Below are positions 3,082 through 43,823 of a stretch of DNA of 43,823 bases, piece by piece. The stretch is from Paracoccaceae bacterium (GTDB taxonomy: Bacteria > Pseudomonadota > Alphaproteobacteria > Rhizobiales > Stappiaceae): NCBI GenBank assembly GCA_002709505.1, contig PARB01000072.1, forward strand, positions 1 to 43,823, in the 5' to 3' direction. A program made the position numbers and the translations under genes. Numbering within the stretch: position 1 is the first letter of the stretch; the number at the start of each line of letters is the position of its first letter. Below the pieces are notes generated by a model. That model had not been told where the DNA came from. It saw nothing but the letters and a program-made list of their open reading frames with translations, and did no database searches.

Positions 3082-4553
3082 GCCGATTTCTCCCGGCGCA
3101 GCGCCGCGCGCAGGCCATATCCGAGGAACAGGAGGGTAAGGACGCCGATCGCCAGCACGCCCGGCCGCGACAGCCAGTCCCAGCCGTAGCGGTTGAGCGT
3201 GATCCAGAGGTTGCGCTCCACCAGCGCGCTGAGAATGAAGCCGATCAGCAGGGGCGCACGGGGAAAGCCGAAGCGCTTCATCAGCCAGCCGAGAATGCCG
3301 CAGGCGACCAATGCCAGCAGATCGCCGAAATGACGCGTCGACTGGTAGGCGCCGACGATGATCAGCGTGAACACCACCGGGAACAGGAGACTGAACGGCA
3401 CAAGCGCAAGACGGCTGATCGGACGCGACAGCGCGAAGCAGACGGCCGTGCCGACCACATTGCCGATCGCGAGACTCCAGACCAGCGCGAAGATCAGTTC
3501 CAGATTGTCGGTGAGCATGCGCGGTCCGGGCTGAATGCCCTGGACCACCATGGCGCTCAGCAGGAGCGCCATGCCGGCACTGCCGGGCACGCCGAAAAGA
3601 AGCGTCGGGATCAGCGCGCCGCCTTCCTTCGCGTTGTTGGCGCTTTCAGGGGCGATCACGCCCCGCACATCGCCGGAGCCGAATTTCGACTTGTCGCGCG
3701 CCGTGCGCACCAGAAGGCCGTAGTTGAGCCAGTCGACGATCGAGGCGCCGAGCCCGGGCACGATCCCGACCCCGACCCCGACCAGGGAGTGGCGCACGAC
3801 CAGCGGCCAGTGGCGACGGACGTCGCGGGCGCCCTCGCCCCAGCCCGATCCGACGGAAAGCCCCTTGCGGGCAATCGATCCGCCGCGCGACAGAACGTCC
3901 AGGAACTCCGGGATCGCATAGAGGCCGAGCGACAGGACCACGAGGGGAATGCCGTCGAACAGATAGTCCATCTCGAAGGAGTAGCGGTATTCCGCCGTGA
4001 TGTTTGAGGCACCCCAGGTGCCGAGGAACAGGCCGAGCGAGGCGGCGAGGATGCCCTTGAGCGGCGCATTGCCCGACAACACGCCGATCATGCAAAGGCC
4101 CATCACGCTCATCATCAAGAGTTCGGGCGAGGCAAAGGACAGGACCATCCCGCGCGCGACCGGCAGCGACAGACACAGGGCCAACGCACCGATGATGCCG
4201 CCGAACATGGAGGCAAGGAAGGCGGCGGAGAGAGCGCGGGCGCCCTCGCCCTTTTGCGCCATCGCATAGCCGTCGACGACGGTTGCCTGCGACCCGGCAG
4301 AACCGGGTACCCCGATCAAAACCGAGACAAACGTGTCCGACGTGGTGATCACGGCCGCGACACCGATCAGCATCGCCAGTCCCGCGGTCGCGTCCATCGT
4401 GAACGTGAGCGGGAGAAGCAGCGCCATGCCGACAATTCCTCCCAGGCCTGGCAAAACGCCAACCGCAAGGCCCACCCCGACGCCGACCAGCAGATATGCC
4501 AGATGCCCTGGCTGCAACACGATGAACAATGCCTGTACGGCGGCGTCGAGCAT
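3078..4553 (-). CDS. tctA: Tripartite tricarboxylate transporter large permease (TctA family)
   Basis: The 491-residue polytopic protein has the two glycine/proline-rich signatures of the TctA family: LPGLGGIVGMALLLPLTF near residue 35 and VPGLGASIVDWLNYG near residue 265. About eleven or twelve membrane segments are apparent. It is the channel subunit of a secondary, ion-gradient-driven uptake system that works with a periplasmic binding protein; family members carry citrate, other carboxylates and aromatic acids. A strong GGGGGGAA ribosome site lies just before the ATG. It leads the tctA-tctB-abrB operon and is divergent from tctC across a 122-bp regulatory region. The neighbouring hydrolases suggest uptake of a compound they degrade. 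Confidence 0.95.
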   Translation of the reverse strand: MLDAAVQALFIVLQPGHLAYLLVGVGVGLAVGVLPGLGGIVGMALLLPLTFTMDATAGLAMLIGVAAVITTSDTFVSVLIGVPGSAGSQATVVDGYAMAQKGEGARALSAAFLASMFGGIIGALALCLSLPVARGMVLSFASPELLMMSVMGLCMIGVLSGNAPLKGILAASLGLFLGTWGASNITAEYRYSFEMDYLFDGIPLVVLSLGLYAIPEFLDVLSRGGSIARKGLSVGSGWGEGARDVRRHWPLVVRHSLVGVGVGIVPGLGASIVDWLNYGLLVRTARDKSKFGSGDVRGVIAPESANNAKEGGALIPTLLFGVPGSAGMALLLSAMVVQGIQPGPRMLTDNLELIFALVWSLAIGNVVGTAVCFALSRPISRLALVPFSLLFPVVFTLIIVGAYQSTRHFGDLLALVACGILGWLMKRFGFPRAPLLIGFILSALVERNLWITLNRYGWDWLSRPGVLAIGVLTLLFLGYGLRAALRREKSA

Positions 4554-5814: not shown

Positions 5815-6522
5815 ATGAAACTGACACGCGGCAAAGACACCCGGATCGCCACGGGCACCGCCGAACTCCCCTGCTACGAAGTGTTTCCGCCGCATCCTGC
5901 GAGCGAGCGGCCGACCGGACGGATTGTGCTGCTGCAGGAAATCTTCGGAACCAACCAGCACATTCGCGAACTGGCCGACCAATGGGCCGACGAGGGATTT
6001 CACGTGATCGTGCCGGATCTGTTCTGGCGCATCGAGCCCGGCGTCCAGCTCGGCTATGACGGGGAGGACCTGGAAACCGCGCGCGCCCTTTACAGCAAGC
6101 TCGACTGGGACCTGGCCGCCGACGATGTGATGGCCTGCGTCGACCATGCGCGGGCGGCGGGCGGCGCCCCCGTGTTCCTGCTCGGCTTCTGCTTCGGCGG
6201 CAAGCTGGCCACGATCTGTGCCACGCGACCGGGCATCGACGCCGCGGTCGGCTACTACGGCGTCGGCATCGAGAAGCTCGGCATCGCCGGCGACGTCGCC
6301 TGCCCGATCATGCTGCATTTCGGCGCCGACGACAAAGGAACGCCGCCCGAGGCCATCGCCGAATTGCGCCGCCAGCTCCCCGAAGGCGCAAAGGTGTTCA
6401 GCTATGAAGGCGCCGGACACGGCTTCAACAACTGGCGCAAGAGCGCCTATGACGCGCCGTCCGCGCAGCGCGCCTTTGCCCGCAGCCTGACCTTCCTGCG
6501 CGACGCAGCGCGGACCGCCTGA
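5815..6522 (+). CDS. Dienelactone hydrolase family protein
   Basis: The 235-residue alpha/beta hydrolase has the dienelactone hydrolase arrangement: nucleophile Cys126 in GFCFGG, Asp172 in FGADDKGTPPE and His202 in GAGHGF. Glu42 in LQEIFG is the residue that in the family positions the cysteine. Typical members open lactone rings in chloroaromatic degradation, but many have other ester substrates. The ATG is preceded by TTGGAGATCC, and the longer upstream open frame is not coding. It lies directly after the tctC terminator and may belong to the same catabolic function; that link is inferred. Confidence 0.92.
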   Translation: MKLTRGKDTRIATGTAELPCYEVFPPHPASERPTGRIVLLQEIFGTNQHIRELADQWADEGFHVIVPDLFWRIEPGVQLGYDGEDLETARALYSKLDWDLAADDVMACVDHARAAGGAPVFLLGFCFGGKLATICATRPGIDAAVGYYGVGIEKLGIAGDVACPIMLHFGADDKGTPPEAIAELRRQLPEGAKVFSYEGAGHGFNNWRKSAYDAPSAQRAFARSLTFLRDAARTA

Positions 6523-33571: not shown

Positions 33572-34378
33572 ATGCAATCGGAAACCCTCATCGGCGCGCT
33601 GATCCTCGGCCTCGTCGAAGGACTGACGGAATTCATCCCCGTCTCCTCGACCGGACACATCCTGCTGCTTGGACATTTCATCGGATTCCAGAGCACCGGC
33701 AAGACCTTTGAGGTTCTGATCCAGCTCGGCGCGATCCTGGCGATCCTCACCGTCTACGCGCATCGGCTCATCGCCATCGCCCTGGCACTGCCGCATCAGG
33801 CATCGGCACGGCGCTTCGTCTTCGGCGTGCTGCTCGCCTTTCTTCCCGCCGCCGTCATCGGGGTCATGCTGCACGGCTTCATCAAGACGGTGCTGTTCGA
33901 ATCGCCCGCGCTGATCTGCACCACGCTCGTCATCGGCGGCGTCATCCTGCTGGTGATCGACAAGATGCCGCTGAAGCCGCGCTACCACGACGCGATGGAC
34001 TATCCGCTGTGGCTGTGCCTTGCCATCGGCTTTTGCCAGACGCTGGCGATGGTGCCCGGCGTTTCGCGCTCCGGCGCGACCATCGCGGGCGCCCTTTTGA
34101 TGGGAACGGACAAGCGCTCGGCGGCGGAGTTCTCGTTCTTTCTGGCGATGCCGACCATGGCCGGCGCCTTCGCCTACGACCTGTTCAAAAACCGCGACAT
34201 CCTGTCGATGGACGATGCCGCCATCATTGGCGTGGGTTTCGTTGCCGCCTTCATCACCGCCGTCTTCGTCGTGCGCGGCCTGCTCGACTTCGTCGGCAAG
34301 CACGGCTTCGCGCCCTTCGCCTGGTGGCGCATTGCCGTCGGGCTCGCGGGTTTCGCCGGGCTATATTTCACCGGCTGA
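33572..34378 (+). CDS. uppP: Undecaprenyl-diphosphatase (bacitracin-resistance)
   Basis: The 268-residue membrane enzyme has the two catalytic motifs [14 protein letters not shown] (16-29) and [13 protein letters not shown] (about residue 160), with about eight membrane segments. It recycles undecaprenyl pyrophosphate for peptidoglycan synthesis. ATG is preceded by GGAG 11 bp upstream. Its end overlaps the convergent WYL-regulator gene by 18 bp. Confidence 0.96.
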
Positions 34379-35374
34379 TCCGGCATCGCGCGCCATTTGC
34401 TCCAGCTCTTGCGCCAGCCGGGCCCGCAGGTCCGGCGGCGAGACGAGATCGGCACCCGGCCCGAGCCAGCGCACCAGCGGCAGGATCACCTCAGGGTCGG
34501 TGTTGGGAATGCGCAACCGCAAGCGTCCGTCCCCCTCCGGCTCGAAGACGGCATGCCGGTAGTACCAGTCGCGGCAAAGCCTGTCGGCCTGTTCGCGGGA
34601 CACGCTGATCTCGCTCGCCACACCCTCGCGTTCCCATCGCCGCATCGCCCGCGACAGCCAGGCACGTCCGATCTGGCTCTGGACGCTGAGGTCGAGGCGC
34701 GGGCGGAATGCCATGCCGCTGACCTCGGCATGACGGACCCGGTCGGCGCGCAGGAACCGCTCCGCCTGCAGGTCGACCTCCCAACCGTAGAGGTACCAGC
34801 GGTCCCGGTCGAACAACAGGCCACAGGGCTCCAGATCATAGTCGCTGACCCGGCCGCGATACGGGTTTTCATGCCGGATGCGCACGCGCCGGGACGCGAG
34901 CAGCCCCTGCATGAAGGCATCGACCGCCGCCTGCATGTCGGCGACCGCCACCGGTTCCGGCTCGGGGTGGAAAACGTCGACCGGCGGCCGTTCAATGGCA
35001 ACGATCCGGTCGCCCTGCTCGATCACCTCGCGGGCGCTCCTGGGCAGCGAGGCGAGCAGCTTGGCCTGCGCCGTGCCCAGGTCCTCTAGCAGGGGTGTCG
35101 CCCGCAGCCCGCGCACCAGCGCCAGCGCGACGAGCAGCGCCGCCGTTTCTCCCCGCGTCAGCGCGACCGGCGGCTGGAGATATCCCCGCGCCAGACGGTA
35201 GCCGCCCTCCGCGCCGCGCTCGGCCTCCACCGGAATGCCGAGCGCGATCAGGCGGTCGACGTCGCGGTAGATCGTGCGAACCGAGACGCCGAAACGCTCG
35301 GCCAGCTCGGTTGCCCGGCGCTGACCGCCGCTCAGCAGCAGAAGGATCCCCAGTGCCCGTTCTATCGTGTTCAT
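34361..35374 (-). CDS. WYL-domain transcriptional regulator (YafY/DeoR-type)
   Basis: The 337-residue protein has an N-terminal helix-turn-helix (about 1-60, [24 protein letters not shown]), followed by a WYL domain (about 140-320, with [11 protein letters not shown]) that in the family binds nucleic acid or other ligands. It is divergent from the DUF1127 gene across a 153-bp gap that holds a perfect 13-bp inverted repeat, the likely site for this protein (inference). Confidence 0.93.
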
Positions 35375-35446
35375 CGCCCGCCCCGGCTCAACCCCACCCC
35401 GTCCGCGAAAGAGATCTCCCGCGGCGCGAAAAACCGATTATGGGCC

Positions 35447-35480
35447 GATCATACCTGACGCCCTGCTGTCAGGTATGATC
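35447..35480. promoter_or_regulatory. Perfect 13-bp inverted repeat, probable operator/promoter
   Basis: GATCATACCTGAC (35447-35459) and its exact complement GTCAGGTATGATC (35468-35480) flank an 8-nt loop. Each arm contains TATGAT, a -10-like hexamer facing outward on each strand, between the WYL regulator and the DUF1127 gene. This looks like a shared operator over divergent promoters, plausibly for the WYL protein. No -35 partner is clear. Confidence 0.6.
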
Positions 35481-35527
35481 CTCGACACTCCCTTATCGAC
35501 AGATTTTCAAACGGTAGGGGACCAGTC

Positions 35528-35788
35528 ATGACCACTTCGAATCACACCGCCGCTCTCACGATCAGGATGGATGCCGGCCGCACGCTGTGGCGCAGTCTCT
35601 CGGGCCGCTGGCAGGCGTGGCGGCGCATCCGCCGCAGCCGGCGGGAGCTCGACCGGCTGAGCGAGGAGCAACTGGCCGACATCGGGCTGAAACGCACGCC
35701 GACCGGCTATGACGTGCAGACGGAGCTGCGCACGCGCGACATAAGGCTCTTGCGCGAAATGTCGAAGACCTGGGGGTACTGGTTGTGA
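35528..35788 (+). CDS. DUF1127 (YjiS-like) small protein
   Basis: The 86-residue protein carries the DUF1127 core RRELDRLSEEQLADIGLKR in its middle, with a basic, Arg-rich region before it (WRRIRRSRR). DUF1127 proteins occur in many alphaproteobacteria, are often stress- or sRNA-associated, and bind RNA in some cases. A GGGGA site lies just before the ATG. It is controlled from the divergent region with the palindrome at 35447. Confidence 0.88.
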   Translation: MTTSNHTAALTIRMDAGRTLWRSLSGRWQAWRRIRRSRRELDRLSEEQLADIGLKRTPTGYDVQTELRTRDIRLLREMSKTWGYWL

Positions 35789-35799
35789 AGCGACCCGGT

Positions 35800-35823
35800 G
35801 GCGGCGCCTATGCTTGCGCCGCC
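35800..35823. terminator. Hairpin between convergent DUF1127 and NDUFA9-like genes
   Basis: A perfect 8-bp stem, GGCGGCGC / GCGCCGCC (35800-35807 and 35816-35823), closes an 8-nt loop at the convergent junction. There is no T run on either side, so it is only a possible transcript end or stabilising hairpin. Confidence 0.4.
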
Positions 35824-35839
35824 GCCCGAAACCGTCGCC

Positions 35840-36832
35840 TCAGGATGCGGCGCGATTGGCGTCGTACTGGCCGTGCTCGCGGAACCGCTCGAGATAGGTC
35901 GGCAGGATCGCCATCAGCGTGCGTGCCTCGATGCCGAGCCCGTCCAGAGTGCGCCCGTCCGCAATCGCCGCCTCGCTGACCACATTGTCGGACTTCAGCA
36001 GCTCGACCTGATCGACGGTGAGCATCGGATTGGGGAGCAGCTGCAGCACGCTTGCCTGGACGCGGGCCACGGAAAACGGCAGCGTCACCAGCAGGCGCTT
36101 GCGGCGGATGACCTCAAGCATCAGTTCCAGGCATTCCCGGAAAGTCTTGATCTCCGGTCCGCCCAGTTCATAGATCGTGCCGCGCGTGGTCTGCCCGTCG
36201 ACCGCCATGGCAACCGCCTCCGCGACATCGCCGACGAAAACGGGCTGGAAGCGTGTTGCGCCGCCACCGACCAGCGGCAGCACCGGCGACATCCGCGCCA
36301 TGGAGGCGAAGCGGTTGAAGAAGCCGTCCTCCGGGCCGAAGACGATGGAGGGGCGGAAGACGACGGCCTCGGGCACGGTCTCGAAGACCCCGGCCTCACC
36401 CATCGCCTTGGAGCGGCCATAGACCGACGGCGATTCGGGATCGGCGCCGATGGCGGAGACATGAACGACGGTGTCGATGCCTTCCGCGCGGGCGGCCTCG
36501 GCGACGGCGCGCGGCCCGAAGGTCTGCACCGCGTCGAAGGACTGGGCGCCGGCCTCATAGAGAATGCCGACAAGATTAACCACGGCATCCGCGCCCTGCA
36601 CCGCGCGGTCGACCGACCAGCGATGCCGCAGGTTTGCCTGGACCGGCATGATCTGGCCGACGGCGCCGAGCGGCTGCACGTGTTCGGCGAGATCCGGCCG
36701 GCGCACGGCAACGCGCACCCGGTAGCCGCGGCGCGCCAGCGCGCGCACAACATGGCGCCCGAGAAACCCCGAGCCGCCGAAAACCGTGACGAGTTTGCCA
36801 TTCAGGGCGGATGAACCGGAGGCGGTCGTCAT
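35840..36832 (-). CDS. NDUFA9-like complex I-associated NAD(P)-binding protein
   Basis: The 330-residue extended-SDR-like protein has the nucleotide motif FGGSGFLGRHV (18-28), then VNLVGIL and GRSKAMGEAG in place of the usual Tyr/Lys site, and the ending typical of bacterial homologues of the NDUFA9 subunit of complex I. The ATG at 36832 is chosen because AAGGGAG lies 8 bp upstream; the frame extends further without homology. Function in bacteria is not settled. Confidence 0.9.
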   Translation of the reverse strand: MTTASGSSALNGKLVTVFGGSGFLGRHVVRALARRGYRVRVAVRRPDLAEHVQPLGAVGQIMPVQANLRHRWSVDRAVQGADAVVNLVGILYEAGAQSFDAVQTFGPRAVAEAARAEGIDTVVHVSAIGADPESPSVYGRSKAMGEAGVFETVPEAVVFRPSIVFGPEDGFFNRFASMARMSPVLPLVGGGATRFQPVFVGDVAEAVAMAVDGQTTRGTIYELGGPEIKTFRECLELMLEVIRRKRLLVTLPFSVARVQASVLQLLPNPMLTVDQVELLKSDNVVSEAAIADGRTLDGLGIEARTLMAILPTYLERFREHGQYDANRAAS

Positions 36833-36963
36833 GCCAGTCGCTCCCTTGCCGGACGTAATGCTTTCCCGCGCGGCGCGCGGGCTTTCAGCAGGTCTCTTAG
36901 CCCTTGCGCCGGCGTCTGTGAAGGGCAGTTGTGCATGAACCGCATATGAGCGCAAAAGGCCCG

Positions 36964-36991
36964 TTGACAAGCCCGTCCACGGCTCTTACAA
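36964..36991 (+). promoter_or_regulatory. Candidate promoter of tRNA-Leu
   Basis: A perfect TTGACA (36964-36969) lies 36 bp before the tRNA-Leu gene. A weak TTACAA hexamer follows after 16 bp. The -10 is poor, so only the -35 is convincing. Confidence 0.5.
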
Positions 36992-37004
36992 GCGCTCCTC
37001 ACGA

Positions 37005-37091
37005 GCCCAGGTGGCGGAATTGGTAGACGCGCTAGCTTCAGGTGCTAGTGCTCGAAAGGGCGTGGAGGTTCGAGTCCTCTCCTGGGCACCA
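37005..37091 (+). tRNA. tRNA-Leu (CAG)
   Basis: GCCCAGG...CCTGGGC pairs in the acceptor stem, the anticodon arm CTAGC-TTCAGGT-GCTAG gives CAG (reading CUG), there is a long variable arm, and the CCA end is encoded (37089-37091). It stands alone and is followed by a terminator. Confidence 0.96.
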
Positions 37092-37131
37092 AATTCCGGT
37101 TCCGGATCTTGCCAATTGATCCAGAACGTCG

Positions 37132-37167
37132 AAAAAGGTCCGGTTTTCCGGGCCTTTTTTCGTTTTT
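37132..37167 (+). terminator. Rho-independent terminator after tRNA-Leu
   Basis: A stem GGTCCGG / CCGGGCC (37137-37143 and 37148-37154, one G-U pair) has a TTTT loop, is preceded by five A residues and is followed by TTTTTTCGTTTTT. It ends the tRNA transcript before the restriction gene patch. Confidence 0.9.
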
Positions 37168-37293
37168 GGCGCGGAATTTTCCGAGCCTCGCCCGCCCGGC
37201 ATTGGCGCTGCTCCCCCTCCCCGGTTGATTTTGCCCGAAAGACCAGCGCTAGATGGCGCATTGCGTGTCCTTCTCAGAAATCCCAAACCGTTC

Positions 37294-38076
37294 ATGTCCA
37301 ACGATTTCACCTCCGTCGACGCCTTCATTGAGCGCTGGAAACCCTCCCGCGGCAGCGAGATGGCCAATTTTCAGAGCTTTGCCGCCGAACTCACGGATCT
37401 GCTTGGCGTCGAACGGCCCAAGCCGGCCGACAGCGACGGCACGGCCAACGACTATCGTTTCGAACGACCGGTGACCTTCACCCACACCGGGCGCGGCAAC
37501 AGAGGGCGCATCGACCTCTACCGCAGGGGCTGTATCGTGATGGAGGCGAAGCAGGGCGGCGACCGCCAGACGCCCAGGAACGCGGATCGGCTGACGCTGA
37601 CGCAGATGTGCAATTTGCTGGAAAAGCTGCGCACGGGCGAGACCATCGAGGGCAAGGACCAGGAGATCTATGAGCAGGGTCTTGTCGGCATTTTGAGAGA
37701 CATTCACGACCGCATCGACGCGGCGGTCGCCGAGGCCTATGGCTGGCCGGTCGATCTCAGCGACGAGGAAATCCTGTTCCGCCTCGTCGATCTCAACAAG
37801 GAGCGCGCGGCGGAAGAACCGGCCGGACACATCCGCTGGCTGCGGCCCGACTATCAAAACCCGCAAGGCCGCAAGAGCGAAGCGAAGGGCAAGCAGGTCG
37901 AACTGGCAGTCGGCACCGCCGAGACGGTCACGAAAGCCCCCTGGCCGAAAACCCTGCCCGAGCAGATCGCCCGCCGCTTCCAGCCCGCGCGCACCGCAAG
38001 CGTCGCGCCGCTTCTCGACAGCCTTGCCGCCATCGGCCAGGCACAAGTTACCGACGACGGGAGGTACGCGGCATGA
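37294..38076 (+). CDS. Internally deleted MmeI-like restriction-modification protein
   Basis: This 260-residue open frame joins two distant pieces of a class I methyltransferase/MmeI-like protein. Residues 1-~88 are the N-terminal nuclease region (FIERWKPSRGSEMANFQ; NDYRFERPVTF), with a PD-(D/E)xK-like site: Asp74 in RIDLYRRG, Glu84 and Lys86 in MEAKQG. Residues ~99-190 are the extreme C-terminal part of such proteins (LLEKLRTGETIEGKDQEIY; AYGWPVDLSDEE; IRWLRPDYQNP). The central methyltransferase and target-recognition parts are missing; the joint lies at about 37555-37590 and keeps the frame. Full-length relatives run about 900 residues or more. The stop overlaps the Mrr gene by 4 bp. Confidence 0.82.
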   Translation: MSNDFTSVDAFIERWKPSRGSEMANFQSFAAELTDLLGVERPKPADSDGTANDYRFERPVTFTHTGRGNRGRIDLYRRGCIVMEAKQGGDRQTPRNADRLTLTQMCNLLEKLRTGETIEGKDQEIYEQGLVGILRDIHDRIDAAVAEAYGWPVDLSDEEILFRLVDLNKERAAEEPAGHIRWLRPDYQNPQGRKSEAKGKQVELAVGTAETVTKAPWPKTLPEQIARRFQPARTASVAPLLDSLAAIGQAQVTDDGRYAA

Positions 38077-39083
38077 CCACGCTTTGGGGCTTGCATATGC
38101 CTGAAGACATCGGTGGTGACGCGCTTGAACAGGGCTATGTCGCGATTGGATGGTCTGAGCTCGGCGAGCTTTCTCCGCTGCCCAACGAGCGCGAAGCCGT
38201 CAAGGCTGCTTTGACGAGTGTCTACCCGGATAAAAAGGCGGGAGGGATTCCGGTAGAGGCCGGGGTCATTATCAGATTCCTTCATGTGATGAAGGAAGGC
38301 GACTACATCGTCTATCCTTCCAAGCACGACCGACAGGTCAATATCGGCAAGGTCGCTGGGCCGGTAACCTATCATCCCGGCGTCGAAGACGAGCCAAACG
38401 ACTACCCTAACCGACGCAAGGTGGATTGGGTTCGCAGTTTCCCCAGAAGCGACTTCTCTCAATCAGCCCTTTACGAAATTGGGTCGTTCCTGACCTTGTT
38501 CCTTGTGAAAAATCACAAGATGGAGTTTTTGGCGAAGATTGATCCGTCATTTACGCCTGTTCCATCGGAAGACGAAGCGCCTACGCCTGATGATGATAGC
38601 GTGACAAGCAATGTCTCTCGCCAAGCGGTTGAGACGACGCAGGATTATGTGATCCGCAAGATCTACAACGGGCTGAATGGATATGAATTCGAGCATTTCG
38701 TAGCGCATCTTCTCCATTGCATGGGCTACACTGCGCGCGTCTCTGAAAAATCTGGAGACGGCGGCGTGGATGTAATTGCTCATACGGACGAGCTTGGTTT
38801 TGAACCGCCAATCATCAAGGTTCAATGCAAGCGCAAGACCGAGCAGACCGGGGACCCAGAAGTCAGTCAGTTGCTCGGGACATTGGGAGAGGGCGAATGC
38901 GCGTTGTTCGTCAACCTGGGCTCCTACAGCAAGCCTGCCCGTGCTCTAGAACGTAACCGATCCAAACTCAGGCTTATCGACGGCGAACAGCTCGTCGGGC
39001 TGGTCTTGGAGCACTACGACAAATTCTCGGCCCGTTATCGTAGCTTGATCCCGCTGCAGCGGATTTTTATTCCCGATGTATGA
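38073..39083 (+). CDS. Mrr-type restriction endonuclease
   Basis: The 336-residue protein has an N-terminal domain (about 1-155; HMPEDIGGDALEQGYVAIGW; FPRSDFSQSALYEIGS) found in Mrr-type endonucleases, then a flexible acidic linker and the Mrr catalytic domain (about 198-310). The nuclease site reads Glu205 in GYEFEHFVA, Asp233 in DGGVDVIA and Gln251-x-Lys253 in VQCKRK. Mrr-like enzymes cut modified or foreign DNA. Its base composition is more AT-rich than its neighbours, indicating acquisition. It is translationally coupled to the MmeI-like remnant by ATGA. No methyltransferase is near, which fits a type IV system. Confidence 0.92.
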   Translation: MTTLWGLHMPEDIGGDALEQGYVAIGWSELGELSPLPNEREAVKAALTSVYPDKKAGGIPVEAGVIIRFLHVMKEGDYIVYPSKHDRQVNIGKVAGPVTYHPGVEDEPNDYPNRRKVDWVRSFPRSDFSQSALYEIGSFLTLFLVKNHKMEFLAKIDPSFTPVPSEDEAPTPDDDSVTSNVSRQAVETTQDYVIRKIYNGLNGYEFEHFVAHLLHCMGYTARVSEKSGDGGVDVIAHTDELGFEPPIIKVQCKRKTEQTGDPEVSQLLGTLGEGECALFVNLGSYSKPARALERNRSKLRLIDGEQLVGLVLEHYDKFSARYRSLIPLQRIFIPDV

Positions 39084-39111
39084 GCCAAACACCTCGCGCA
39101 GCAGCTAGTAG

Positions 39112-39330
39112 ACTCACAGGCAGTCAGGCCGCGCCGACAAGGGCCTCTTCATCACCACAGGCGCCTTCACCAGCCAGGCCTCGGAAGAAGCCACCCGCGA
39201 CGGCGCCATCGCCATCGACCTCATCGACGGTGAGCGGCTGTGCGACCTACTGAAGCAATATGATCTGGGCGTCACGACCCGGATGATCGAGGAGGTGACG
39301 ATCAACGGCACCTAGTTCGACAGCCTGTAG
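39112..39330 (+). pseudogene. C-terminal remnant of a second Mrr-type endonuclease
   Basis: After the complete Mrr gene, plus-strand translation gives GRADKGLFITTGAFTSQ, ATRDGAIAIDLIDGERL and EEVTINGT, the usual C-terminal part of Mrr endonucleases, followed by a stop (39313-39315). Reading on after the TAG gives FDSL and another stop (39328-39330), matching the normal C-terminal end, so the first TAG replaces a codon (often Trp in relatives). No N-terminal part or start is present: a stop lies at 39109-39111. It is a decayed fragment, not the same gene as the intact Mrr. Confidence 0.82.
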
Positions 39331-39495
39331 TGCCGATGGCAACAGACACGACAGGGGCGATGCCCGACAAGCCCGGCGCGCTCGGTGTCGAGGCGGGCTT
39401 GCAGCGATTTCTGAATTTTAATGATGTTCGTCCGGCCTGGCACTCTGTAGCCGGATACTGAACGTCCGGTCGGCGGTGCGGCTGGAGGGGAAGAC

Positions 39496-39571
<76 letters not shown>

Positions 39572-39792
39572 GTCTTCCAGGTCTTGAGCTTCGGGCCGGG
39601 GCCGATGGTCTCGGCTGGGCCTGAAGTCTCCCGGCGTGTCGGCGATTGGGGTCGCCTTGGCCGGTGCGGGCGGAAAATACGTCTTCCGCCCTTCAAGTCA
39701 AGCGGAATAATCGGCGCTTCAAACAATCGCCGATTTCCGCGCCCCCGGGCCTGTGGACAACCGCGACACGCGATTGCCCGCACGCGCGGTTG

Positions 39793-40173
39793 CTAGCGGT
39801 CGGTGTCCTCGTCGTCGCGTTCGACAACGATGCCCGGCACATCCGCGTCTTCCTCGTCTTCATCATCGATGAAAACGTCGTCGGCGGCCGTGTCGTCGAC
39901 ATCCTCGTCGTCATCGTCAAGCGAGACGCTGGCATCGCCTTCCGTTTCGGCGTCCGCCTCTTCCAGGCTGACGATCTCGGCGCCCTCGTCTTCCGTCTCG
40001 TCTTCGTCGTCATCCACCACGGCTGCCTTTGCGGCCTTCTTCAGACGCACGGACTGGGCCGGAATGTAGACCGTGCCGCATTTCGGGCAGGTAATCGGAT
40101 CGCGGTTCAGGTCGTAGAATTTCGCCCCGCATCCGCTGCACAGCCGTTTTGTGCCAAGTTCGGGTTTTGCCAC
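39793..40173 (-). CDS. FYDLN-acid zinc protein (TIGR02300)
   Basis: The ~126-residue protein starts at GTG (40173) with AAGGG 9 bp upstream: MAKPELGTKRLCSGCGAKFYDLNRDP. The four cysteines Cys12, Cys15, Cys30 and Cys33 make a zinc ribbon, and the C-terminal ~70 residues are mostly Asp and Glu. This is the alphaproteobacterial family TIGR02300, of unknown function. It lies divergent from aroA, the usual context. Confidence 0.93.
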   Translation of the reverse strand: MAKPELGTKRLCSGCGAKFYDLNRDPITCPKCGTVYIPAQSVRLKKAAKAAVVDDDEDETEDEGAEIVSLEEADAETEGDASVSLDDDDEDVDDTAADDVFIDDEDEEDADVPGIVVERDDEDTDR

Positions 40174-40214
40174 GGTTTCAACCCTTGTTCTTTGATAATC
40201 GGGCGTTCGCTTAA

Positions 40215-42370
<2,156 letters not shown>

Positions 42371-42655
42371 GCGGACACGCCGTTGGCGTTTTCCGCGTCG
42401 GCAGCATCGCTTCGGATCGCGCGCCGCGCGGTTCTTTGAGGCGGTCGCGACCGCAACACCCGCCTTGCACATTTGCAGACAGAAGCCCAGGTCCTGCGGC
42501 CCCCGCTTCGCCGGCTCGCATTCGCCACCTGAGACAAAGGGGATGGCGCTGCGATTGCACCACTGCCGAAACGGCACGGTGCCGGGTGGCACACAGGATC
42601 GACCGACACCACAAACCCGCCGGCGACGAGCCAGATTTGGCTGCCAGGAGTTTCG
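42371..42655. other. rpsA leader region
   Basis: The 285-bp gap holds no supported gene. A hairpin with internal loop, GCGGA ... ACGCC-GTT-GGCGT ... TCCGC (42371-42396), lies directly after cmk and may end the upstream transcript or begin an S1 leader structure. AGGAG at 42646-42650 is the rpsA ribosome site, 5 bp from the ATG. Confidence 0.45.
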
Positions 42656-43823
42656 ATGAACAGTTTGAACCCCACTCGCGATGAATTTGCCGCTCTTCTG
42701 GAGCAGAGCTTCGAAGAGACGGAGCTGCAGGAAGGCTCCGTCGTCACCGGCAAGGTTGTCGCGATCGAGAAAGACCTTGCGGTCATCGACGTCGGCCTCA
42801 AGGTCGAGGGTCGTATCCAGCTGAAGGAATTCGGCATCAAGGGTCGCGATGGCGACGATGCCGGTGTGTCCGTCGGCGACACCGTCGAAGTTTACCTTGA
42901 GCGCGTCGAGAACGCGCTCGGCGAAGCCGTGCTGTCGCGCGACAAGGCCCGCCGCGAGGAAAGCTGGATCCGTCTCGAAGCCGCCTTCGAGGCGAACGAG
43001 AAGGTCAGCGGCCAGATCTTCAATCAGGTCAAGGGCGGCTTTACCGTCGATCTCGACGGCGCCGTGGCCTTCCTGCCGCGCAGCCAGGTCGACATCCGCC
43101 CCGTGCGCGATGTCCAGCCGCTGATGCACACCCCGCAGCCGTTCCAGATCCTCAAGATGGACAAGCGCCGCGGCAACATCGTCGTGTCGCGCCGCGTCGT
43201 TCTGGAAGAAACCCGCGCCGAACAGCGTTCGGAGCTGGTCCAGAGCCTCGAGGAAGGCCAGGTCATGGAAGGCGTGGTCAAGAACATCACCGACTACGGT
43301 GCGTTCGTCGACCTCGGCGGCATCGACGGCCTGCTGCATGTCACCGACATTGCATGGCGCCGCATCAACCATCCGAGCGAGGTTCTCGCGATCGGTCAGA
43401 CCGTCAAGGTCCAGATCATCCGCGTGAACCAGGAAACGCACCGGATCTCGCTGGGCATGAAGCAGCTTGAAGCCGATCCGTGGGACGGCATCGAGGCCAA
43501 GTACCCGGTCGACGCCAAGTTCACCGGCCGCGTGACCAACATCACCGACTACGGCGCGTTCGTGGAACTGGAGCCGGGCATCGAAGGCCTGATCCACGTT
43601 TCCGAGATGTCCTGGACCAAGAAGAACGTCCATCCGGGCAAGATCGTTTCCACCTCGCAGGAAGTGGAAGTGATGATCCTCGAGGTCGATCCGGTGAAGC
43701 GCCGTATCTCGCTCGGCCTGAAGCAGACGCTCCAGAACCCGTGGGAGGCCTTCGCCGAGAAGTTCCCGTCGGGCACCGAGGTCGAGGGCGAGGTCAAGAA
43801 CAAGACCGAGTTCGGTCTGTTCA
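42656..43823 (+). CDS. rpsA: 30S ribosomal protein S1, 5' part
   Basis: The first 389 codons of bS1 are present; the window ends inside the gene (whole proteins run about 560 residues). It starts MNSLNPTRDEFAALLEQSF and carries successive S1 RNA-binding domains: VVAIEKDLAVIDVGLKVEG, GQIFNQVKGGFTVDLDG, KNITDYGAFVDLGGIDGLLH, NITDYGAFVELEPGIEGLIH and the beginning of another. S1 recruits mRNA to the small subunit. Its leader follows cmk. Confidence 0.97.
   Translation, partial: MNSLNPTRDEFAALLEQSFEETELQEGSVVTGKVVAIEKDLAVIDVGLKVEGRIQLKEFGIKGRDGDDAGVSVGDTVEVYLERVENALGEAVLSRDKARREESWIRLEAAFEANEKVSGQIFNQVKGGFTVDLDGAVAFLPRSQVDIRPVRDVQPLMHTPQPFQILKMDKRRGNIVVSRRVVLEETRAEQRSELVQSLEEGQVMEGVVKNITDYGAFVDLGGIDGLLHVTDIAWRRINHPSEVLAIGQTVKVQIIRVNQETHRISLGMKQLEADPWDGIEAKYPVDAKFTGRVTNITDYGAFVELEPGIEGLIHVSEMSWTKKNVHPGKIVSTSQEVEVMILEVDPVKRRISLGLKQTLQNPWEAFAEKFPSGTEVEGEVKNKTEFGLF

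Follow-up and report, generated by a model that had tools for sequence, protein, structure and literature searches.

Gene 1 of the pair described here is read as a gutted and decayed type IIL (MmeI-like) gene that stands before a PDC-S02 nuclease gene (gene 2) whose product would work alone (probability about 0.85). Both genes lie in a stretch of 43 823 nucleotides, which is termed the window. Rather than forming a new two-nuclease system, the two genes most likely represent a relic and, beside it, a candidate defence gene of known type. An earlier note had left two readings open, a decay step that happened to stay in frame and a working two-nuclease unit; the evidence below supports the decay step but not the working unit. 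A possible new defence system is settled in this way as most likely a decay product, with the intact allele shown at the same site.

Gene content of the site between tRNA-Leu and tRNA-Ala

The features of the site are collected in Table 1. The tRNA-Leu side was matched in all 14 genus genomes (that of the window included), and tRNA-Ala lay inside the fetched stretch in three of the 13 others (G079, G085 and G083). The site in G079 holds a full-length MmeI-like gene and Mrr, and in G083 the first MmeI codons are followed by a type ISP enzyme and then by Mrr. The remaining ten genomes gave no match to tRNA-Ala, MmeI, Mrr or PDC-S02 within 6–9 kb, except for G082, in which the opposite strand carries an Mrr-type match at a distance of about 7 kb. 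The interval 37092–39495 is variable across the genus, being occupied by a full MmeI gene plus Mrr, a type ISP gene plus Mrr, a stub plus Mrr or a stub plus PDC-S02.

Table 1. Parts of the variable site and its borders, in window positions (L047 is the full-length allele of Stappia stellulata SN27-3).
Feature	Position	Strand	Basis or comparison
tRNA-Leu(cag), left border of variable site	37005..37091	+	ARAGORN; tRNA-Leu end in 13/13 other genus stretches
Terminator-like stem-loop 3' of tRNA-Leu	37131..37160	+	Consensus match only; 3 such sites against 2.7 expected by chance
Gene 1, 260 aa, internal-deletion derivative of an MmeI-like (type IIL/IIG) restriction-modification gene	37294..38076	+	
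Gene 1 N part, codons 1-99, start of nuclease domain with D74, E84, K86	37294..37590	+	
Gene 1 first joint, CTGACGCTGA	37591..37600	+	Alignment to L047
Gene 1 C part, MmeI-like C-terminal region minus a further 18 codons	37601..38073	+	
Joint of second deletion (54 bp), GAGCAGATCGCC	37960..37971	+	Alignment to L047
ATGA, overlap of gene 1 stop and gene 2 start	38073..38076	+	G032 (L195) has the same overlap
Gene 2, 336-aa PDC-S02 protein, C-terminal Mrr_cat (D233, Q251-x-K253)	38073..39083	+	
Canonical Mrr remnant, last 68 codons, one in-frame TAG	39124..39330	+	Canonical Mrr occupies the site in L047
tRNA-Ala(ggc), right border of variable site	39496..39571	-	ARAGORN

The coordinates and the 260-residue length of gene 1 as first described, its 4 bp ATGA overlap with gene 2 and the presence of D74, E84 and K86 were all correct, and the in-frame fusion of an N-terminal nuclease region to an MmeI-like C-terminus was confirmed by Pfam and PADLOC. 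Pfam MmeI_N matched residues 9–93 of gene 1, which correspond to profile positions 4–76 of 181 only, whereas positions 4–181 are covered in L047. The PADLOC profile REase_MTase_IIG (PDLC03627) matched with an E value of 2.7e-80, the best stretch being residues 96–260 (profile positions 949–1136 of 1136); the C-terminal region is retained, though 18 residues short. The helical spacer, the adenine methyltransferase and the TRD gave no Pfam match in gene 1 and are all present in L047, in which MmeI_N spans residues 9–235, MmeI_hel 241–312, MmeI_Mtase 404–704 and MmeI_TRD 791–955. The D-x9-E-x-K spacing of gene 1 is the same as that of MmeI, for which the excerpted text of PMC4833311 gives an endonuclease domain of residues 1–155 with catalytic D70, E80 and K82. 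The loss from the nuclease domain comprises about its last third in MmeI numbering and more than half of it by the Pfam MmeI_N profile. With this domain cut and no spacer, methyltransferase or recognition domain left, gene 1 is unlikely to encode an active nuclease; the stub is probably translated yet inactive, and its product would most likely neither modify nor cut DNA. Joint expression of the two genes, which the earlier note took from their overlap, is plausible.

The full-length allele and the two deletions

The allele used for comparison (L047) is that of Stappia stellulata SN27-3, and contig C34 of G079 is apparently the same contig. The flanks are 96.7% identical to it over window positions 34241–37600 and 96.5% identical over 39127–43823, and between these flanks L047 contains a 1163-residue MmeI-like gene (from the ATG equivalent to 37294) and a canonical Mrr gene. 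The earlier note had named two things that together would count against its proposal, a close relative whose corresponding site holds a full-length MmeI-like gene and the lack of a conserved short form; L047 carries such a gene, and a conserved short form of gene 1 was not found in the genomes searched. Relative to L047, the first deletion in gene 1 comprises 2655 bp (885 codons) and is in frame; its end points in L047 are CTGGCGCTGA at 3349 and CTGACGCTGA at 6004, which form a 10 bp near-repeat. A further 54 bp (18 codons) are missing, again in frame, between the 12 bp exact repeats GAGCAGATCGCC at L047 positions 6373 and 6427. In a random control on L047, at least nine of ten bases were common to 9e-5 of 200 000 random point pairs. 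The 18 residues lost from the C part are kept in 24 of 24 C-part rows. To the clean in-frame deletion that the earlier note described, the comparison adds a second in-frame loss and a cut within the nuclease domain itself.

The alignment shows an ancestral allele like that of SN27-3 to have lost codons 100–984 at the 10 bp near-identical repeats and another 18 codons at the 12 bp identical ones, probably by slipped or microhomology recombination. As far as about 37560, gene 1 and L047 are near-identical; at about 37560–37700 they differ more than elsewhere, which means that a local exchange or a phase of fast change also took place around the first joint.

The joint is read from the assembly, and the genome of the window (G000), divided into 107 contigs, is 85.4% complete; with both joints at repeats, an assembly artefact had to be weighed. 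The repeats are merely 10 and 12 bp long, however, two separate joints would be required, and several bases near the first one are not those of L047. The lost MmeI body, moreover, had no match elsewhere in the window's own assembly. It was matched in the five others of the six genomes searched, the matches in G079 and G032 being the relatives at issue and those in G083, G085 and G027 being other MmeI-like genes elsewhere. An artefact is accordingly given very little credence.

Against L047, gene 1 gave dN/dS values (Nei–Gojobori) of 0.23 for codons 1–88, 0.18 for codons 89–99, 0.28 for codons 99–225 and 0.08 for 24 codons near the end. Four flanking genes gave 0.02–0.06, which shows that the constraint on gene 1 is weaker than that on core genes. 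The earlier note had looked to purifying selection as support for a system, and the values are indeed well below 1; as pairwise values they cover the time before as well as after the deletion and so cannot decide between decay and function. Gene 1 departs from columns that are at least 90% conserved at two of 30 positions in the N part and three of 59 in the C part (G19R, F81I, Y106C, V108L and L247I), compared with 0 of 24 and three of 61 for L047, a modest excess. Counting against decay are the frame that stayed open through two deletions, the low dN/dS and the retention of D74, E84 and K86.

Searches for the short form and loci with a broken MmeI-like gene

Overlapping samples of 87 (family), 397 (order) and 385 (class) genomes were searched, with up to six candidates scored per genome at the order and class levels. 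Gene 1 was matched in 18 of the 87, 49 of the 397 and 22 of the 385 genomes, respectively, and across these samples a single match covering both of its parts (residues 1–260) was found in the window only. NCBIfam gave no match to the 260-residue protein at an E value of 1. A species-level search with six 8-residue patterns (one genome per species, 84 980 species) gave 99 stretches that encode a relative, the best 80 of which were kept, corresponding to 79 loci; among the loci kept there was no second copy of the joint, and wherever both N and C parts were present they lay about 0.8 kb or more apart. Gene 1 was matched by 34 of 72 556 plasmid records, with no second copy of the joint, and the viral contigs yielded one relative, matching the C part only, and no copy of the joint. 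Some N-part matches reach residues 120–156, mostly in frames of at least 868 residues, and some C-part matches begin at residues 75–95. L053 and the plasmid hit H4 (36% identity, annotated as a DNA methyltransferase) align with residues 49–260 in a single alignment. L053 was rejected as a short form, since a full-length gene is present there. Residues 49–98 of these two matches are read as a chance extension, and the N-part matches that reach residues 120–156 are likewise taken as extensions. Recurrence of the short form beside Mrr in unrelated genomes, which had been proposed as the mark of a system, was thus not found in the family, class, order, species, plasmid or viral searches.

The N part is present in 15 family genomes; judged by open frame, nine look full-length, one has one stop (the MmeI-like gene of G083, elsewhere in its genome) and five are broken (the window, G032, G027, G075 and G085), with an Mrr-type gene directly behind in four of the five (not in G075). 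In G085 a 37-codon stub runs from the ATG equivalent to that of gene 1 and ends in an ATGA overlap with canonical Mrr. The gene in G032 is split over two contigs, the ends of which look like transposase genes and suggest an interruption. In G027 the N part extends to about residue 101; the final codons of the gene come next, out of frame and interrupted by stops, and PDC-S02 follows them. The class search added G627, in which the N part, to about residue 60–70, is joined in frame to an apparent C-terminal end (weak, E = 0.004); this open joint is without D, E and K and has Mrr 18 nt downstream. Loss of these residues in homologues, which the earlier note had held against its own proposal, does not generally affect the full-length relatives and was seen in the shortened gene of G627. 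The best explanation for these loci would be that the MmeI half was repeatedly lost, and the nuclease kept, in an older arrangement of an MmeI-like gene plus a second nuclease. In this handful of loci the restriction–modification half is lost and the Mrr-type half remains, as would suit a nuclease that does not depend on a cognate methyltransferase.

The MmeI-like genes of L105, L120 and L123 are also internally deleted, so decay of such genes is not rare. They were considered as products of the same deletion event, but their end points are not those of gene 1 and their matched pieces begin in different frames, so that they look like ordinary pseudogenes.

The idea of a functional defence unit of two nucleases that has no modification enzyme could draw on the kept D74, E84 and K86, on the open frame and on the overlap with gene 2, but gene 1 has a cut nuclease domain and no recognition domain, whereas efficient cleavage by MmeI requires two recognition sites (PMC4833311, excerpt). 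Within their limits the searches turned up the short form in the window only, and the similar N–C joints are flawed, that of G627 being without catalytic residues and that of G027 frameshifted. Such a unit is therefore regarded as highly improbable.

The stub might also have been retained because it serves as a leader cistron: translation of the nuclease downstream would be sustained by the stub's start and by its ATGA end, and in-frame deletions would be favoured; this can be true together with the reading as a decayed type IIL gene. It would agree with the fact that both deletions in gene 1 are in frame, with the stub of G085, with the open joint of G627 and with ATGA overlaps in G032 and L053. 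At G027, however, the PDC-S02 frame is intact behind a frameshifted sequence with stops, and GGGAGG at 38059–38064 could be gene 2's own putative ribosome site. An in-frame outcome has a one-in-three chance each time, the sample is small, and a scan of the plus strand of 37000–39560 for the sigma-70 consensus only gave no promoter-like match. A leader role for the stub is thus put forward tentatively, as the less likely outcome. More doubtful still is the wider idea that gutted restriction–modification genes are retained because, as short leader cistrons in an open frame, they control how strongly a companion nuclease is expressed. If this wider idea were true, the methyltransferase half would be shed by in-frame deletion at short repeats, and a type IIL gene plus second nuclease (a two-layer defence) would become a single nuclease with a built-in leader.

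Fifty downstream frames of MmeI-like genes were listed and 23 of them scanned (20 plus L047, L083 and L053); this survey is to be read as a description rather than as an enrichment. Genes overlapping the MmeI-like gene or starting at most about 30 nt from it include canonical Mrr (L047) and PDC-S02-type genes (L083 and L053), and likewise genes for proteins with a sub-threshold EVE match (L049 and L099), AbiU2 (L063), GmrSD (L065), an AAA protein (L086), EcoRV (L110) and a PADLOC NDT_II-A match (L050). A dehydrogenase gene (L082), a gene for a HicA toxin (L115) and some genes without a family are found in this position too. An EcoRV-family gene directly follows a full-length MmeI-like gene in Chromatium weissei (L110:6571-7470). 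A 312-residue protein stands behind full-length MmeI-like genes at three loci (L049:6559-7494, L099:3521-4456 and L055:6537-7472), with a sub-threshold EVE match in two of the three (L049 and L099); its C-terminal half we take to resemble a putative GIY-YIG nuclease, and the protein is possibly a modification-dependent nuclease.

Gene 2 and comparison with known systems

The second gene had been described as an intact Mrr-type gene, and this was borne out by a full-length match to PADLOC PDLC04819 (PDC-S02; E = 2e-134, residues 1–335, profile positions 1–330 of 334) and by a Pfam match to Mrr_cat (E = 8e-25), a domain also found in 14 of 14 members of alignment A2. Over the 14 PDC-S02 rows there is no variation at D233 or K253 and hardly any at Q251. 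Neither Mrr_N nor any recognised Pfam family was found in the N-terminal part of gene 2; besides Mrr_cat, NA-iREase1 and RRG7, the PDC-S02 set gave five Pfam hits, each in a single member (E = 0.056–0.28). An EVE/PUA-type reader in the N-terminal part was considered and is unsupported by Pfam or by hhalign (probability 0.6 and E = 0.097 for PDC-S02 against an EVE-like partner); it is a guess.

Because a canonical Mrr remnant lies behind gene 2, gene 2 was probably swapped in; the site's canonical Mrr appears to have given way, for the most part, to a PDC-S02 module that would have arrived by recombination. Positions 38060–38089, which span the boundary between the two genes, match G032 best (28 of 30 bases, against 20 of 30 for L047). 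The upstream DNA was inspected for 12 PDC-S02 relatives in other genomes, and an MmeI-type gene or remnant stands directly upstream of three of them (G032, G027 and G023), the upstream genes of the other nine being listed without family assignment. The upstream gene in G023 is an MmeI-type methyltransferase without an MmeI_N match. A full-length MmeI-like gene precedes PDC-S02 at L083 and at the distantly related L053. PDC-S02 genes are not bound to MmeI and are also found without an MmeI-type neighbour. The viral contigs held three longer relatives of PDC-S02 and one short one; L212–L214, at 43–55% identity, lie on three IMG/VR viral contigs.

The type IV reading of gene 2 is our inference from the lack of a methyltransferase and from the catalytic domain, which is of the Mrr kind: the protein would probably act alone, most likely as a modification-dependent nuclease, and PDC-S02 is a sensible candidate for a single-gene test.

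Non-exhaustive literature searches found no account of a truncated type IIG restriction–modification pseudogene arising by in-frame deletion, and 'MmeI-like' was absent among the matches listed for Mrr or type IV restriction in the same operon. In the excerpted text of an EVE census (PMC7641849), Mrr and MmeI do not occur.

Gene 1 is like the MmeI family (type IIL/IIG) in its D-x9-E-x-K spacing, in its C-terminal region and in having a full-length relative at the same site; it differs from that family in having a cut nuclease domain and no spacer, methyltransferase or recognition domain. Gene 2 shares with Mrr/MspJI-type modification-dependent (type IV) nucleases an Mrr_cat domain with D..QxK, and its sequence weakly matches PDB entry 4f0p (E = 0.012), which we take to be MspJI; unlike them, it has neither Mrr_N nor a recognised reader domain in its N-terminal part. 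E. coli Mrr, which is described as having this type of catalytic domain behind a winged-helix N-terminus, is said to recognise both methylcytosine and methyladenine. Like the canonical Mrr genes of the same site (L047, G085 and G083), gene 2 stands behind a restriction–modification gene; Mrr_cat is shown in the Mrr of L047, to which those of G085 and G083 are 77% and 89% identical. Unlike gene 2, the canonical Mrr of L047 has Mrr_N, and the window keeps only the last 68 codons of such a gene. The phage-defence candidate PDC-S02 is described as a predicted and unvalidated system in the excerpted text of PMC10855318; gene 2 matches its profile over residues 1–335, no difference from it was found in the sequence, and what differs is the setting, behind a gutted type IIL gene.
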